From a virus: a stretch of 64,000 nt of DNA. Both the position numbers and the translations under genes were made by a program. The stretch's first letter is position 1. Each line of letters begins with the position of its first letter. The stretch spans positions 39,637 through 103,636 of IMG/VR virus record IMGVR_UViG_3300047325_000130. One strand, written 5' to 3'. The notes under the pieces were generated by a model that was given only the letters and a program-made list of their open reading frames with translations, was not told where the DNA came from and did no database searches. Positions 27,143-58,335 of this stretch are shown piece by piece.

Positions 27143-30100
27143 ATGACAGATTTAATTTTCGCTCTTGGGCAAAACCTGAGCGACCCGCTAAGCAACGTAG
27201 TAGTATATCAATCAGATGACGGAGTTAGTTGGACAAATCCAACAACTCCTTTTTCTAGATATCAATCTGCATCTAGCATTTCTTACGGATTAGTTGATTC
27301 TGTACCAACACTTATTACTATAAGTTCGGTTGGAAATGTCGCAGTTAGCACGAATTTTATAAATTGGGAAATAACTACGCAATTGGAAGGTGGGTATTTC
27401 TCACCTCTTTCTATTGATTACGGTAATAGTATATTTGCTACTTGTGGATTTAATAAAAACAATTCATCGTTTAATGAAACTGCAATAATATTTCATAGTG
27501 CAGACGGATCTACTTGGAATAATTCATACACAAATAGTATATCACCCAGCATATTATACAGTATCAAATATATTAACGCAATGTGGGTAGCTGTTGGCCA
27601 AAGTAATAATACTCCGTTGGTAATTTACAGTACAGATGCAGTTAACTGGACGGTTCTTGATGTTCCAGATGAATTTAATGGTTTTATTTTCTACGACGTA
27701 GATTATTTTGATAATTATTATTATTTTAGTTCAAACAGCTACATTGTTAATAACTTAAATTTAAGTTCTACTTGGGGTGCTAGTGCAAAATTAGAAAGTG
27801 ATTACAGCAATACTAATTTTACAAAAATAGGTATTAATTCAAACGGACAAGCAGTTGCAGTTAGTAGTGGTGCAATTTACTCTAGTACCGATTTAACAAC
27901 TTGGAACAAATTTCAATATCCGGGATATGCATTTATAAGTGTTGCATATTTTAATAATAATTGGTTAGTAGGCTCTTATAGTACATTAAATCAATTTACA
28001 TTATTTACAAGTACCAACGGGATTGCTTGGTCCGCAAGTAATAATGGTGTTCAAACTATCGAATTTGTATCAAATTATATACCTGTAACGCCAACACCCC
28101 CTGTTCCGGTATCAAATATAACTATTGTAAGTTCGCCTCCGGCCGTTTCGGTAAACAGCATCTTCGGTGTAACCGGTAACATAAAAAATGTAAGCGATCA
28201 GGTTTTAGTTTTTGTTTCTTCGTCTGACACGTCAAGCTTGTTTATAAGTGACTTGATCGGATTAGATAGTACTCCAGCAATTCCATATAGCAGCGGAAAT
28301 TGGATAGAGCCAAAAGTAACACTATTTGAAGGCTCTGTTGGTCCGGCATATATCGTTGCTATTGATTACACGCAATTTGCTGCAAATGGTGGTACTACAT
28401 TAACCGGAGTTGATTATGCGGTTACTCCGATTAATATCATATCAACCCCTACTCCGTATTTTGTTATTTCTATATATAATACTGCAAACGTAAACCAAAC
28501 ACCATTTTACTATGCGGGGTTTGCTCAAAATTATTTGGTGCAAATGTATAATACTACTTTTGCCCAAACCTCTGCAGGTTTATCAACTACACCGAGTCTT
28601 GAAGGTCTTCTTCAAAATCAAACTTCTGATTCATACACGCCTTTTGCAGTAAACCCACAGGGCATAATATCAGCTACAGTAATTACCACACCCCCAACTG
28701 CCGGAACATATTACGTTGTAGTATGGGTTACTGATAATCCTTTATATTTTAGTGCAAGTGCTGCTTTAGTTGTTACTGAAAATGATTCTGGTGGTAATGC
28801 CTTATCAAGCATTGCTTCGCAATCAAATCCTCCTATGTTCTCTAATTGGGGAGTAAATGAAAAAAATCTAGCAGCAGGACCTTATCCAACAACATTAGCA
28901 GTTGAACCGGCTGCAATTCTGCTACCCGGCGAATCATACCAAAGCGGAAACATGTATATATATCCTGCATTGGCAGAATCTACTGGGCTTGTAGCACCAA
29001 CTGGACCGGTACCTATTGTTAATGCATATTGGACAAATTTTTCACCAACCACAACAGAACCAACGCCTGATAATAGTACGACATATTTGATGGCTACATC
29101 AGATTCTACTAGCCCATTTTTTGCATTTGCATTGCTTGCATTTCCGGACCAATATACGGTTGTTACTTCACACTTTAGTGGTTCAATTCGAACACTTTTC
29201 GCTGATTTACCTGCTCCACCAACTGCCGGAACTTGGTATCTTTCATATTGGTTAAATAATTCTTCCGGTGAAAATATTGCATGGTGTGTATTTGAACCAT
29301 TTAATGTTACCGCCCCTAATGTTTTGTTTATAACATCAACGACCGGCGAATATACGTTACCTTCTGATTTTTCAGGTACAAGTCCGTGGACCATAGAGAT
29401 GATTGGTGCAGGCGGCGGCAGCACATTTTCAATTAATCCTGCCGGTGCTGGTGGCGGCGGCGGCGCCTACTCTAAGATCTCTTCTTCCGACGGATATTCA
29501 TTATCAGCAAATCAAACAATATATGTCAATGTAGGTTTAGCTACTGATAGCTGGGTTAATTTTTCAGCTAACTCTCCGCCAACAGCTCGTTATGAAGGAG
29601 CATTGGCAAAAGCTGGTGCAAACGCAATAGGAACAACAGGCGGTGTCGGCGGACAAGCCTCTGAATCAATTGGTACAATAGTTTATTCGGGCGGCAATGG
29701 CGGCGACTGTACTGATAACTACGGCCTCGGAGGCGGAGGTGGAGGTTCTGCTGGACCAAACGGTAATGGGCAAAATGGCGGCTCTGGCGGTAACACATCA
29801 GGCACTGGCGGCGGTGGCGGCGGAGGAGCAAATGGGGGGTTATCTACTGCAGGTGGGAGCTCAACTAGTTCAACCGGCGGTCTCGGCGGCCTTGGACCAA
29901 CTGGTAGTGGGCCAGCGCAACCAGGTGTAAATGGTACAAATGGCGGCGGCGGCGGCGGCAGTAGCAGTAGTGGTTTTACATATGCCGGTAACGGTGGCTC
30001 ACAAAATGTTTGGGTTCAAACATCTGATGGTTCAATCGCAGGACCAGGGGGAGGGGGAGGCGCCTTTTATATCGGTATATCTAATACGCTTCGCGGTGCA

Positions 30101-30193
30101 GGAGGCAATTACGGTGGCGGATCTGGCGGCGGCGGGTATGCTGACGTAACAATTAATGGTGCACCAGGAATTATTGTCATAACTTATAAATGA
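27143..30193 (+). CDS. Large virion/fibre protein with beta-propeller and glycine-rich tip
   Basis: 1016 residues. Residues 1-310 contain at least five propeller-type units with the sialidase/Asp-box-like signature S-x-D-G-x-x-W (SDDGVSW, SADGSTW, STDAVNW, SSTDLTTW, STNGIAW). Residues 320-720 are Ig-like or CARDB-like beta domains, with a repeated PPTAGTWYLSYW / PPTAGTYYVVVW element. Residues about 740-1016 form a glycine-rich domain (IEMIGAGGGS then many GGGGG runs), as in phage adhesins and the polyglycine tips of T-even-type receptor-binding proteins. Likely a receptor-binding or fibre tip protein, probably host-range determining. Confidence 0.75.
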   Translation: MTDLIFALGQNLSDPLSNVVVYQSDDGVSWTNPTTPFSRYQSASSISYGLVDSVPTLITISSVGNVAVSTNFINWEITTQLEGGYFSPLSIDYGNSIFATCGFNKNNSSFNETAIIFHSADGSTWNNSYTNSISPSILYSIKYINAMWVAVGQSNNTPLVIYSTDAVNWTVLDVPDEFNGFIFYDVDYFDNYYYFSSNSYIVNNLNLSSTWGASAKLESDYSNTNFTKIGINSNGQAVAVSSGAIYSSTDLTTWNKFQYPGYAFISVAYFNNNWLVGSYSTLNQFTLFTSTNGIAWSASNNGVQTIEFVSNYIPVTPTPPVPVSNITIVSSPPAVSVNSIFGVTGNIKNVSDQVLVFVSSSDTSSLFISDLIGLDSTPAIPYSSGNWIEPKVTLFEGSVGPAYIVAIDYTQFAANGGTTLTGVDYAVTPINIISTPTPYFVISIYNTANVNQTPFYYAGFAQNYLVQMYNTTFAQTSAGLSTTPSLEGLLQNQTSDSYTPFAVNPQGIISATVITTPPTAGTYYVVVWVTDNPLYFSASAALVVTENDSGGNALSSIASQSNPPMFSNWGVNEKNLAAGPYPTTLAVEPAAILLPGESYQSGNMYIYPALAESTGLVAPTGPVPIVNAYWTNFSPTTTEPTPDNSTTYLMATSDSTSPFFAFALLAFPDQYTVVTSHFSGSIRTLFADLPAPPTAGTWYLSYWLNNSSGENIAWCVFEPFNVTAPNVLFITSTTGEYTLPSDFSGTSPWTIEMIGAGGGSTFSINPAGAGGGGGAYSKISSSDGYSLSANQTIYVNVGLATDSWVNFSANSPPTARYEGALAKAGANAIGTTGGVGGQASESIGTIVYSGGNGGDCTDNYGLGGGGGGSAGPNGNGQNGGSGGNTSGTGGGGGGGANGGLSTAGGSSTSSTGGLGGLGPTGSGPAQPGVNGTNGGGGGGSSSSGFTYAGNGGSQNVWVQTSDGSIAGPGGGGGAFYIGISNTLRGAGGNYGGGSGGGGYADVTINGAPGIIVITYK

Positions 30194-31144: not shown

Positions 31145-34100
31145 ATGTCGTATATAGATGCCATTATAGATAAAGAAAAGAATCAGATTGTTGTTGTTGA
31201 ACGAAGAAATGATGGCAAACGATATTATAAGACATACCCAACTGAATACTTAACGTATTGGCCGAGCGAAAAAGGAAAATTTGAATCAATATTTGGAAAT
31301 AAATTAGAAAAATATAAAACCAATAATTGGAAAGAATTTCAAAAAGAAATTAAATTATTATCTGGTAAGAAATTACACGAATCAGATATTAATCCAATAT
31401 TTAGATGCTTATACGAGAATTATAGATCTCTACCCGCTCCTGATTTAAACATTGGATATTTTGATATAGAAACTGATTTCTCTAAAGATCGGGGGTTTTC
31501 TTCATCAGAAGAAGCTTTTATGCCTATAACTGCAATAACTATTTTTGTAAGTAATCATAATAAAAATTATACATTGGTTGTAGCACCTAAAGGAATAACA
31601 TCTGGTGCAGCACAATCTATTGTAGATAAATTTGAAAATACATTACTTTGCGAAAACGAAAAACAATTACTTGAAACATTCTTAATGTTAATTGAGGATG
31701 TTGATATATTAACTGGCTGGAATTGTCTTGACGAAAATTCTCCAATCTTTTTAGAAGATAGAATTATTAAAATTAAAAATTGTAAATCAAATCAAAAGCT
31801 AATTTCTGGAGAACAAATACTTAAGACGCACAATTCTGGTAAAAAAGAAAAACTTGTGATCGAATTAGATAACGGGTTGATAATTAATTCATCTGAGGAT
31901 CATAAATTTCCAATAATAAGTAAAAAATTTGAAAAATATACAAATTTAAATCAGATGAAAAATAATGGTCAAGTTATGAATTTAAAATCAATCGAAAAGC
32001 ATATCACTGATAATCATGTATATTTTAAATTAGAACTAAAAGGTAACAACAATTTAGACTTAACTTGGGGACAATATATAAAAAATAATTTAAATCTTTT
32101 ATTGGAATATCATTGGTTTGATATAGTTATTACAGAAAAAAACTTAAAAAATAAAATATGGAATTTTTATAAAGATTGTGGTAAATTAGAATCATCTGGT
32201 TTTACCCGGAGTGAGTATAAAAATCAAACTGTACCAAAATTATGGTCCTTTAAAAAGCATAAAGGTATTTTGACAACAGAAGATATAGAATTATTGTTGA
32301 ATCAAGACGTAATGCCGATTTACCTGAATAAAGTAAGAGGTGTTATAAATGTCAATATGAACGAAGTAATTGATAAAACTTATTGGAAATTGCTTGGATT
32401 TATATTTACTGATGGATTTTATTCAAAATATGATAATTGCTTTTCTATTTGTAATAAAAGAGAGGATGTAATTAGTTATTACGCTGAACTATTGAATACT
32501 CAATATAAATTAAAACGTCAAGATAATTGCTACTACGCAAATCGAAATAATGGTATGTTGAAGTTATTATCACCGTTTATCTATACAAATGAATGGAAAA
32601 AAGTTATTAATATAGAACTTTTTAGTAGATGTTCTATTTCTCAATTCTCACAATTTATATCGTCATCAATTGATGGTGATGGTAGTGTAGGAGATTCATC
32701 AGTATCTATATGTGAATTTCAAAATAATTCAGAATCTTTTCAAACACTGTTTTCATGGTTTGGTATATATAGTAATCGTCGCGCCGATAATATATCAGTT
32801 CCTTTTCATGAACATAACAATCAATTTTTAAATATGCTTGAATTATCACATGGCGATAAAAAGGCAAAACTTTTAGAAAGAAGAATGTTTGTAACAGTAG
32901 GCGCTCCAAATAAAAAGTTAAAACAAGTATATGATAAAGTTGAGAAATCTTTTTATATAAGAATTCGTAATATAAAACGAACAGGACTAATGGTTTGTAT
33001 GTTTGATATTATGACTGAATCACAATATTTTATATGTAACGGTGCGAAGGTACATAACAGTACCTCTTATGATGTACCTTATACACATAATAGAATTATT
33101 CAAGTTTTAGGAAAAGAGGAAACTCGCAAACTCTGTCTATTAGGTAAATTCCCAAAGAAAAGAGAATATACCCAATATGGTAAAGAGCAAATAACATATG
33201 ATTTGATAGGTAGAGTTCATATCGATTATCTGGATTTATATAAGAAACACGTAACTCATGAAATGCATAGTTATAGACTTGACTATGTGGGTGAGGTAGA
33301 AGTTGGTGATAGAAAGACTCCTTACGAGGGTACTTTAGATCAATTATATAATAATGATTTCGAAAAGTTTATTGAATATAACAGGCAGGACGTGTTGCTG
33401 CTGGTTAAGATTGATAAAAAATTAAAATTTATTCAACTTGCAAATGAAATTGCACATACCAATACAGTTTTAATACCAACAACAATGGGCGCGGTTGCGC
33501 TTATTGACCAAGCAATTGTTAACTTTGCGTGGAATAAAAATCTACATGTTCCTACAAGAGAACGAGAAACAATTGAAGAAAGAAACATACGACATCTTGA
33601 AGAAGAAGAGTCCGGTGTAGTTGGCATAGTAGGTGCATATGTTGCTGATCCAAAACCCGGATTGCATGATTGGATAGGCGGCGTTGATATTAACAGTCTA
33701 TATCCAAGTACTATTAGAGCGTTGAATATGAGTCCCGAAACTGTAATAGGGCAGATACGTTCAGATTTTACTGATGAATTAATAAAATCTAGAATGTCCT
33801 CTAAAATTTTAATTGACGATGCAAAAGTTAATTTATTTGGTCCAGACACTTATCAGAAATTGTTGATTGATGCACGAACAAGCAAAGAACTGTCATTTGC
33901 AGACGCGTGGCATGAAATGTTTGGTACTCTTGAATATAATTGGATTATGGATCAGACTGATACTGTTCTTACAATAGATTTTGAAGATGGTAGTGAAGTA
34001 CGAGCAACAGCAGCAGAGATATATGAATTAATATTTGATGGCACAAACAAATGGATGTTAAGCGCAAATGGCACGATACTTGATATTTCTAAAGCAGGTT

Positions 34101-35320
34101 TAATCCCAACAGTTTTATCAACTTGGTATGCCGAACGAAAAAGTCTACAGGCCAAAGCAAAGGAATTTGATGCACTTGCATCAGCCGAAACTGATCCAGA
34201 TAAAAAGAAAGAACTATTGGCTCAATATGAGCATTATGATAGATTGCAATATATTAAGAAAATTCTTTTGAATTCTCTATATGGCGCGGTGGGAAATATG
34301 GGGTCGAGGTGGTTCGATGTTCGTATAGCTCAAAGTACAACTCTTAGTGGTAGATGCATTGCTAAGCATATGAATGGTAAAATTAATGATATCTTGACCG
34401 GAGACTATAATCATAAAGGCGCTGCGGTGATTTACTCGGATACAGATTCATCTTATTTCTCAGCCTACAAAGTAATGATGGACGAACCAGAGTTTGCTGA
34501 TTATGAATGGACACCGGAGAACGTTATTAAGTTATATGATAGCATAGGTGATATGACCAACGCATCATTCCCAGAATTTATGAAGCAAGCATTTAATTGT
34601 CCAGAAGAAAACGGTAAGCTTATTAAAGCATCTCGAGAACTTTGTGCAAGCAAAGGATTGTTTATTACCAAGAAACGTTATGCAGTTATGATTTTTGATA
34701 AGGAAGGCAAGAGAAAAGATAAAAACGGCCCCGGCGAAGTTAAAGTTATGGGTATGGATCTTAAAAGAAGTGACACACCCAAACCGGTACAAGAATTCTT
34801 ATTTGAAGTCTTAACTTCGGTTCTTACCGGCGGAACAAAAGAAACTGTTTTACAACAGATAGCTGATTTTAGAATTAAATTTAAAGATTGGCCAAGTTGG
34901 GAAAAAGGTAGTCCAAAGCGTGTTAATAATTTGACTTATTATGGTAATGTGAAAAACAATCAAGAGTCACCTGACGTAAGAAAAAGTTCAGTTAAGAAAA
35001 TGATTCCCGGGCATGTTCTAGCAAGTATTAACTGGAATAACCTAAAGAAAATATATAATGACGCATATAGCGTTCCTATTATGGATGGCGCAAAGGTTAT
35101 TGTTTGCAAGGTAAAGCCTAACCCCGCGGGTATCACAAGTGTAGCTTATCCAACAGATCAACATGTCTTACCAGAGTGGTTTAGAACCTTACCATTTGAT
35201 ACCGATTTAATGGAAACGACTCTGATTGATAAAAAAATTGGAAATTTATTAGATGTATTAAATTGGGATCTAAGTCAAGCCAAAAGTGATTCGAGTTTTT
35301 CAGATTTATTTCAATTTTAA
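31145..35320 (+). CDS. Family B DNA polymerase (T4 gp43-like) with intein
   Basis: 1391 residues; 946 after removal of the intein at residues 194-638. Exonuclease motif I is FDIETD (residues 106-111); motif II is restored by splicing as GWN-STSYDVPY. Polymerase motifs: A, DINSLYPST; B, KKILLNSLYGAVGN; C, YSDTDSSYF; plus KKRYA. The last residues FSDLFQF resemble the clamp-binding tail of T4 gp43. Replicates the phage genome with 3'-5' proofreading. AAGGAAA ribosome site. The clamp gene follows by 85 bases, the usual replication grouping. The lengths and order of motifs make the family assignment firm. Confidence 0.95.
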   Translation: MSYIDAIIDKEKNQIVVVERRNDGKRYYKTYPTEYLTYWPSEKGKFESIFGNKLEKYKTNNWKEFQKEIKLLSGKKLHESDINPIFRCLYENYRSLPAPDLNIGYFDIETDFSKDRGFSSSEEAFMPITAITIFVSNHNKNYTLVVAPKGITSGAAQSIVDKFENTLLCENEKQLLETFLMLIEDVDILTGWNCLDENSPIFLEDRIIKIKNCKSNQKLISGEQILKTHNSGKKEKLVIELDNGLIINSSEDHKFPIISKKFEKYTNLNQMKNNGQVMNLKSIEKHITDNHVYFKLELKGNNNLDLTWGQYIKNNLNLLLEYHWFDIVITEKNLKNKIWNFYKDCGKLESSGFTRSEYKNQTVPKLWSFKKHKGILTTEDIELLLNQDVMPIYLNKVRGVINVNMNEVIDKTYWKLLGFIFTDGFYSKYDNCFSICNKREDVISYYAELLNTQYKLKRQDNCYYANRNNGMLKLLSPFIYTNEWKKVINIELFSRCSISQFSQFISSSIDGDGSVGDSSVSICEFQNNSESFQTLFSWFGIYSNRRADNISVPFHEHNNQFLNMLELSHGDKKAKLLERRMFVTVGAPNKKLKQVYDKVEKSFYIRIRNIKRTGLMVCMFDIMTESQYFICNGAKVHNSTSYDVPYTHNRIIQVLGKEETRKLCLLGKFPKKREYTQYGKEQITYDLIGRVHIDYLDLYKKHVTHEMHSYRLDYVGEVEVGDRKTPYEGTLDQLYNNDFEKFIEYNRQDVLLLVKIDKKLKFIQLANEIAHTNTVLIPTTMGAVALIDQAIVNFAWNKNLHVPTRERETIEERNIRHLEEEESGVVGIVGAYVADPKPGLHDWIGGVDINSLYPSTIRALNMSPETVIGQIRSDFTDELIKSRMSSKILIDDAKVNLFGPDTYQKLLIDARTSKELSFADAWHEMFGTLEYNWIMDQTDTVLTIDFEDGSEVRATAAEIYELIFDGTNKWMLSANGTILDISKAGLIPTVLSTWYAERKSLQAKAKEFDALASAETDPDKKKELLAQYEHYDRLQYIKKILLNSLYGAVGNMGSRWFDVRIAQSTTLSGRCIAKHMNGKINDILTGDYNHKGAAVIYSDTDSSYFSAYKVMMDEPEFADYEWTPENVIKLYDSIGDMTNASFPEFMKQAFNCPEENGKLIKASRELCASKGLFITKKRYAVMIFDKEGKRKDKNGPGEVKVMGMDLKRSDTPKPVQEFLFEVLTSVLTGGTKETVLQQIADFRIKFKDWPSWEKGSPKRVNNLTYYGNVKNNQESPDVRKSSVKKMIPGHVLASINWNNLKKIYNDAYSVPIMDGAKVIVCKVKPNPAGITSVAYPTDQHVLPEWFRTLPFDTDLMETTLIDKKIGNLLDVLNWDLSQAKSDSSFSDLFQF
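31724..33058 (+). mobile_element. Intein with LAGLIDADG endonuclease in DNA polymerase exonuclease motif II
   Basis: 445 residues from Cys194 to Asn638 of the polymerase. Starts CLDENSPIFLED, has an SSEDHKF block (block B region), two LAGLIDADG-like motifs LLGFIFTDG and FISSSIDGDG, and ends GAKVHN with Ser as the +1 extein residue. All splice-critical residues (Cys1, penultimate His, terminal Asn, Ser+1) are present, so splicing is expected. Insertion is inside the Exo II motif between GWN and STSYDVPY. Confidence 0.9.
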
Positions 35321-57060: not shown

Positions 57061-58335
57061 TGTCGTAAGTCCGCTAGAGCTCGCTCGGCGGATACAAGAC
57101 ATATTTTTTAACCAACCGAATTTAAATTATAAATACATTTGTGTATAAAGCATTTAAATATAAATTAAATCCGACCAAACAACAAATAACCGAACTAACA
57201 AAATGGTTTGGTTGTGCAAGATGGATTTGGAATTGGGCTTTAACAACAAATACTCAACAATATCAATTGAATAAAAAATTTGTATTTAAATTTGACTTAA
57301 CAAATCAATTGCCGAAACTGAAACAAGATAAAGATTGGCTTAAAGATATACCAGCACATGGGCTATTAAATAGATTAATTGACTTCGATGTGGCACTAAG
57401 ACGAGTTTGGAAATTAGGTGCTGGATTTCCTAAATATAAATCAAAATTAATTGAACACCATAACACATTTAAAATAAATCAAATCAATAAACATATTAAA
57501 TTATTTGATAAACAAATACAAATACCAAAAATAGGCTTAGTCAAATACCGATATCATAGACCTATAGAAGGAATACTTAAATCCATTACAATCAAAAAAG
57601 AAAATGATATGTATTGGGTTGTTTGTCTTTGTGATTTAGGTGATATCCAACCAATACATCCAAACGAAGATGTTGTTGGTATTGATCTAGGACTTAAAGA
57701 TTTTGCTGTTACTTCAGATGGTGTAGTATTTGCTACACCAAAACTATACAGAAAGAAACAAAAGAAATTAAAATGGCTGCAACAAAGATTATCAAAAAAG
57801 AAAAAAGGAAGTAAAAACAAAGAAAAAGCACGTAAAAAATTAAATCGTTTGCATTATAAAATTAAATGCCAACGAAACGATTTTACTCATAAAATAAGTA
57901 ATCAAATAACCAACGATTACAAATACATAGCTATTGAAGACTTAAATGTTAAAGGAATGATTAAAAATCATAACTTAGCAAAAAGTATTCAAGATCAAGC
58001 ATGGAGTAGTTTTACATTGCAGTTAGCATATAAGAGTTTATATAAGGGTGGGATAACGAAAAAGATTGATCGTTTCTACCCTTCAAGTAAAACTTGCTCA
58101 TGCTGTGGGAATGTTCAGACTATTTCATTATCAGAACGAATATATAATTGCGATGCATGTGAAATTTCTATTGACCGAGACCTAAATGCAGCAATTAACA
58201 TCAAAAATAGGGCTGGGATAGCCCAAATTAACGCCTGTGGAAATACCTCTAGCGGGGACGATGTCATGACGTCATCTAGTTATGTATTGATGAAGCAGGA
58301 AGCCGCTTGAGCTCGCTCAGCGGTGGTTCAAAATA
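57060..58335 (+). mobile_element. IS200/IS605-type element (tnpB only)
   Basis: Both ends carry a related subterminal hairpin: left CCGCTAGAGCTCGCTCGGCGG (57081-57101 or so) and right CCGCTTGAGCTCGCTCAGCGG (58302-58322 or so). Between them is one tnpB and no tnpA, so the element would need a transposase in trans. No target duplication seen, as expected. Exact edges uncertain by tens of bases. Confidence 0.7.
57141..58310 (+). CDS. tnpB: TnpB RNA-guided nuclease
   Basis: 389 residues, GTG start. RuvC-like residues: GIDLGLKDFAV (Asp182), IAIEDLNVKGM (Glu266), DRDLNAAINI (Asp347). Zinc finger CSCC (Cys319, Cys322) and CDAC (Cys337, Cys340). A basic helical region lies between. All catalytic elements look intact, so it should be an active omega-RNA-guided nuclease or a homing-type maintenance factor. 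The guide RNA would lie at the right end. Confidence 0.93.
   Translation: MYKAFKYKLNPTKQQITELTKWFGCARWIWNWALTTNTQQYQLNKKFVFKFDLTNQLPKLKQDKDWLKDIPAHGLLNRLIDFDVALRRVWKLGAGFPKYKSKLIEHHNTFKINQINKHIKLFDKQIQIPKIGLVKYRYHRPIEGILKSITIKKENDMYWVVCLCDLGDIQPIHPNEDVVGIDLGLKDFAVTSDGVVFATPKLYRKKQKKLKWLQQRLSKKKKGSKNKEKARKKLNRLHYKIKCQRNDFTHKISNQITNDYKYIAIEDLNVKGMIKNHNLAKSIQDQAWSSFTLQLAYKSLYKGGITKKIDRFYPSSKTCSCCGNVQTISLSERIYNCDACEISIDRDLNAAINIKNRAGIAQINACGNTSSGDDVMTSSSYVLMKQEAA

Follow-up and report, generated by a model that had tools for sequence, protein, structure and literature searches.

Inteins of family B DNA polymerases (PolB) are classically known from 3 insertion positions, all of them in the polymerase domain (PMC549080). 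At these positions, I-III (the pol-a, pol-b, and pol-c alleles), LAGLIDADG inteins of archaeal PolI and Mimivirus PolB sit in polymerase active-site motifs. For the PolB of Halobacteria, PMC4071816 names 4 intein alleles, a, b, c, and d. Among T4-like phages, the Aes123 PolB1 intein of Aeromonas phages is inserted in polymerase motif C at DTD/SVY (a slash marks the insertion point throughout) and is cysteine-less and split (PMC11923092). The intein described here shares the LAGLIDADG type with the classical inteins and a T4-like phage PolB with Aes123 PolB1, but unlike either of these it lies in the exonuclease domain, at motif Exo II, and is thus none of the pol-a, pol-b, or pol-c alleles. 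The published positions, including that of Aes123 PolB1, agree with the expectation of the sequence-only reading, made without database searches, that most PolB inteins occupy polymerase-domain motifs.

The DNA analyzed, hereafter the window, is a stretch of 64,000 nucleotides from an uncultured virus record of 103,636 bases (IMG/VR IMGVR_UViG_3300047325_000130). A single uninterrupted ORF on its plus strand (31145-35320) encodes the polymerase and the intein together in 1391 aa. We identified the polymerase as a T4-type family B enzyme (gp43) from its homology to the RB69 and T4 enzymes, with a match to RB69 gp43 at E 8e-49, and the alignment with RB69 showed Exo I, Exo II, Exo III, and the polymerase motifs all to be intact in the exteins. 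The N-extein (31145..31723, plus strand) contains the Exo I motif FDIE and the first half of Exo II (...LTGWN), and the C-extein (33059..35320, plus strand) begins with Ser+1 and contains STSYDVPY with the Exo II Asp, the Exo III motif YNRQDV, and the motifs DINSLYPS, KILLNSLYG, and YSDTDS. Without the intein, the polymerase measures 946 aa and aligns end to end and unbroken with its 80 best IMG/VR relatives. The nearest cultured polymerases belong to jumbo phages, including Sinorhizobium phage Phosso, whose polymerase has no interruption, Agrobacterium phage Atu_ph07, and PA5oct- and Rak2-like phages. In cultured PA5oct-like phages, a homing endonuclease gene splits the homologous polymerase into 2 ORFs after about 800 aa (L263:498-5724, OR805293.1, Deifobo); the polymerase of Pseudomonas phage Deifobo was rejected as a candidate for a break at Exo II, its first fragment of about 800 aa reaching far beyond that motif. 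Elsewhere in the window we observed a transposase-like gene (57141-58310; phrog_506, E 2e-114) and a 1016-aa protein (27143-30193) with a long glycine-rich C-terminal stretch, tail-fibre or adhesin-like in appearance.

The intein spans 31724..33058 on the plus strand and has 445 residues; the ORF, the junctions, and the relatives give exactly the coordinates and length proposed from the letters. Both junctions are codon-exact, with an N-extein ending in DILTGWN, an intein running from CLDENSPIF to GAKVHN, and a C-extein starting with STSYDVPY. In the alignment with RB69 gp43, the insertion point falls between the equivalents of N217 and V218, 4 residues before D222, the Exo II catalytic residue, and the earlier placement in Exo II of a T4-type polymerase is thereby confirmed. 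Some of the RB69 structures among the matches carry Ala at D222, as expected of exonuclease-minus mutants.

We aligned the window intein with 23 other inteins (alignment A1, 24 sequences) and found 25 invariant columns, including C1, S57, H60, G225, T229, D230, G231, K293, D317-G320, D428, H444, and N445. The residues of a class 1 intein (C1, S57-x-x-H60, H444-N445, and S+1) are all present, and none of the 17 conserved positions of the splicing domain deviates. All blocks lie on the plus strand: block A (CLDENSPIFLEDR, 31724..31762) forms the N-terminal splice junction with Cys1, block B (GLIINSSEDHKFPI, 31874..31915) contains Ser57 and His60, and block G (AKVHN, 33044..33058) ends in His444-Asn445. 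Block F (CMFDIMTESQYFICNG, 32996..33043) keeps Asp428 and has Gln434 in place of the usual His, which is present in 19 of the 23 relatives. The endonuclease is of the LAGLIDADG (DOD) type, with motif 1 (block C, LLGFIFTDG, residues 223-231, 32390..32416) carrying the catalytic-type Asp230, a Lys293 of the block D type (32600..32602), and motif 2 (block E, ISSSIDGDG, residues 312-320, 32657..32683) keeping Asp319. At otherwise conserved endonuclease positions, the window intein shows 3 substitutions, namely G314S in the second LAGLIDADG helix, where it is the only sequence of A1 with Ser in place of the family Gly, N331E, and N346F. The match to the Pfam Intein_splicing profile scored 25 bits, below the curated threshold of 35.8 bits.

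The AlphaFold model of the intein, computed from A1, reached a mean pLDDT of 93.0 and a pTM of 0.91. Its top Foldseek matches in the PDB were TliVMA, PI-SceI, the intein endonuclease 2cw7, and PI-PfuI (E 1e-11 to 1e-7), with further matches to the gp41-1 intein in the splicing domain and to I-DmoI in the endonuclease, and the HINT fold of the splicing domain is found in the model and in its structural matches. At the sequence level, the intein by itself had only weak matches in the PDB. The presence of both a splicing fold and a LAGLIDADG endonuclease fold is thus well supported by the model, and the intact Cys1, His-Asn, Ser+1, and 2 LAGLIDADG motifs noted in the sequence-only reading were borne out. 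A chance resemblance is excluded by the full-length relatives (E down to 4e-69), the 25 invariant columns, and the model taken together.

We scanned IMG/VR for the junction patterns GWN/C and G...HN/xxx[FY]D.PY and, after clustering at about 90% identity, obtained 23 complete phage inteins. The count of nonredundant complete inteins at precisely this codon junction of other T4-type polymerases is thus at least 23, a lower bound because the patterns fixed some of the residues. All 23 are related to the window intein, from L109 as the best match (E 4e-69; 32.7% identity) to the weakest at about 1e-16, so that insertion at GWN/xxx[FY]D goes together with homology to the other inteins there. A second IMG/VR scan started from A1 and searched in effect for one LAGLIDADG motif only, Fx[SA]G[LMC][ILV]DGDG, which made it independent of the insertion site. 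It returned 48 confirmed relatives, with every readable junction at the Exo II site; nearly all were placed automatically at GWN/...HN/[CS]xxFD, and L224 (the contig of L114) and L244/L246 were placed there on inspection. The family is therefore an allele of one site. Like the window intein, the other phage members (L109, L110, L083, L122, L132, and others, all from uncultured contigs) have the GWN junction, full-length homology, the same block structure, and a LAGLIDADG endonuclease; they differ from it in being only about 23-35% identical and, for most of them, in having Cys at +1, whereas the window intein, L109, L110, and L118 have Ser. Phage Exo II inteins range from about 341 to 474 aa (L123, L132, L136, L114, and L127 in A1). 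Most of this variation comes from an additional segment lying between block B and LAGLIDADG motif 1, which the window intein has and the short members lack. No second intein of this family was found in the 103.6-kb record.

The same junction is occupied in archaea. A pattern scan of genome contigs identified a 449-aa intein at the Exo II junction in the PolB of Natronomonas aquatica (L152), and close relatives turned up in 19 of 292 sampled Halobacteria genomes, with all readable junctions following GWN/C...HN/C[DEN]DFD (haloarchaeal Exo II inteins: L149, L152, and L194-L212). In genome G040 (L211/L213), the matching region contains in-frame stops, which suggests a decayed copy. The C-junction pattern alone, run against GTDB genomes, returned mostly unrelated proteins (ends ...GHN/xKEFD) and 2 archaeal PolB inteins. 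The haloarchaeal inteins resemble the window intein in their position within a family B polymerase and in their LAGLIDADG type, and they differ from it in their archaeal host and in sharing only about 20% identity with it over the endonuclease half (E 4e-8). Exo II is probably the polB-d site of PMC4071816, because the alleles named there for Halobacteria number 4, against 3 classical polymerase-domain positions. With at least 23 distinct phage inteins and the haloarchaeal relatives at one junction, the view that the site is unusual does not hold: in substance it is an established pol intein allele, for archaea and also for phages in public data that lack its annotation, and this is the finding that the sequence-only reading had set against its own claim.

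The window intein, used directly as a query, retrieved no relative from cultured phages at the protein level, and its peptide patterns retrieved none from IMG/VR; the reason is that the relatives are only about 25-35% identical, and taken by themselves these searches would give a false impression of a unique element. Protein-level searches of cultured phages with 6 other family members likewise gave no match, for a total of 7 Exo II inteins searched, and an isolate could still harbor an Exo II intein of greater divergence. The literature we searched yielded no description of an Exo II intein site in phages. Judged by sequence comparison, the window intein is new at the sequence level, and its family is widespread and site-specific.

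The distribution of the intein among related polymerases is patchy. All 80 best polymerase relatives of the window in IMG/VR lack it, including the 3 nearest (L001-L003, 58-61% identical), which read GWN/SEGFDIPY across the empty site. The occupied L109 falls in the same 5-member clade as the window and the empty L001-L003, and at least 7 changes of occupancy, gains or losses, are needed on the polymerase tree. The intein tree groups the window intein with L109 and L110 (support 86, not starred), all 3 with Ser+1; both trees come from quick searches, and the inner branches of the intein tree are weakly supported. The native residue at +1 is Ser in empty relatives of the window's clade and Cys in empty relatives of other clades (L085, L090, L093, and L106, found with a pattern that requires Cys). 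From this clade-by-clade agreement we conclude that the +1 residue comes from the host gene, with Ser or Cys at Exo II inteins following the host residue. The occupied L091 has, at the codon junction, a 1032-bp intein that is precisely absent from the empty L090; downstream, their polymerase DNA is 92.8% identical over 1929 nt. The two form a natural occupied/empty pair on which homing could be tested. The occupancy pattern and this pair give indirect support to the presumed cleavage of the empty target site by the endonuclease. The proposal that the homing target is a conserved DNA stretch holds for the protein motif and less for the DNA.

We consider it highly likely (probability of about 0.9) that the window carries a mobile LAGLIDADG intein belonging to a site-specific allele family at Exo II (GWN/[SC]xx[FY]D) of T4-type phage polymerases, self-excising and spread by homing. 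The gene would be translated into the 1391-aa precursor, from which the intein would be released by class 1 splicing, with formation of the Cys1 thioester, transfer to Ser+1, and cyclisation of Asn445 assisted by His444. Ligation of GWN to STSYDVPY would then restore the normal 946-aa proofreading polymerase. During co-infection, we infer, the uninterrupted Exo II coding sequence of a related phage would be the target that the endonuclease recognises and cleaves, and the intein would be copied into that phage by gene conversion.

A sub-case of the mobile-intein reading, tentative at best, is that splicing competence persists while the endonuclease is decaying and no longer mobile, the intein being retained as only its precise deletion restores the polymerase. 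The Ser at the LAGLIDADG helix Gly, Glu331, and Phe346, set beside a splicing domain without deviations, point this way, as do the empty sites of the window's nearest polymerase relatives; against it, the intein retains Lys293 and the catalytic-type Asp230 and Asp319, its frame is open, the domain is modelled at high confidence, and in some other members the number of deviating positions is equal or higher. From the alignment, the 3 substitutions and the absent block F His are mild hints that the endonuclease may be drifting toward decay and that splicing could be slow. The G+C content of the intein (26.0% vs 34.0% in the extein) places it among the 0.8% of same-sized window segments with the least G+C; this agrees with the mobile-intein reading, although relaxed constraint, rather than recent transfer, may be the cause.

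Because the insertion lies 4 residues away from the catalytic Asp of Exo II, the intein could also be read as regulatory, with conditional splicing setting when the phage has proofreading and thereby producing a transient mutator polymerase, and the absent block F His could slow splicing or make it conditional. It is plausible that unspliced polymerase lacks proofreading, as the sequence-only reading supposed, but the 445-aa insert could disable the whole enzyme and is likely to affect more than the exonuclease, and a patchy allele with many empty close relatives fits a selfish element better than a needed switch. We therefore regard regulation by splicing as very improbable, and slightly more improbable still a mutator switch in which slow or conditional splicing leaves a pool of proofreading-less polymerase during infection and the intein is kept for its Exo II position; a special regulatory or mutator role of this intein is unsupported. 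The least credible reading is an artefact, either a pseudogene or a chimeric assembly, in which a piece of an intein was attached to the polymerase. An uncultured IMG/VR contig makes this conceivable, but the reading frame is single and open, both junctions are exact to the codon, and dozens of independent contigs show the arrangement too.

Taken alone, the intein of the window adds a further case to the inteins found in replication genes. The same intein family recurs at the same site in many uncultured phages, together with the haloarchaeal inteins, and the window intein therefore represents a recurring selfish element rather than a new kind. Since none of the 7 Exo II inteins searched matched a cultured phage, the family would be missed by isolate-based annotation and intein lists. 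Exo II is thus a recurrent intein site of family B polymerases beyond the 3 classical ones, common to uncultured phages and haloarchaea.
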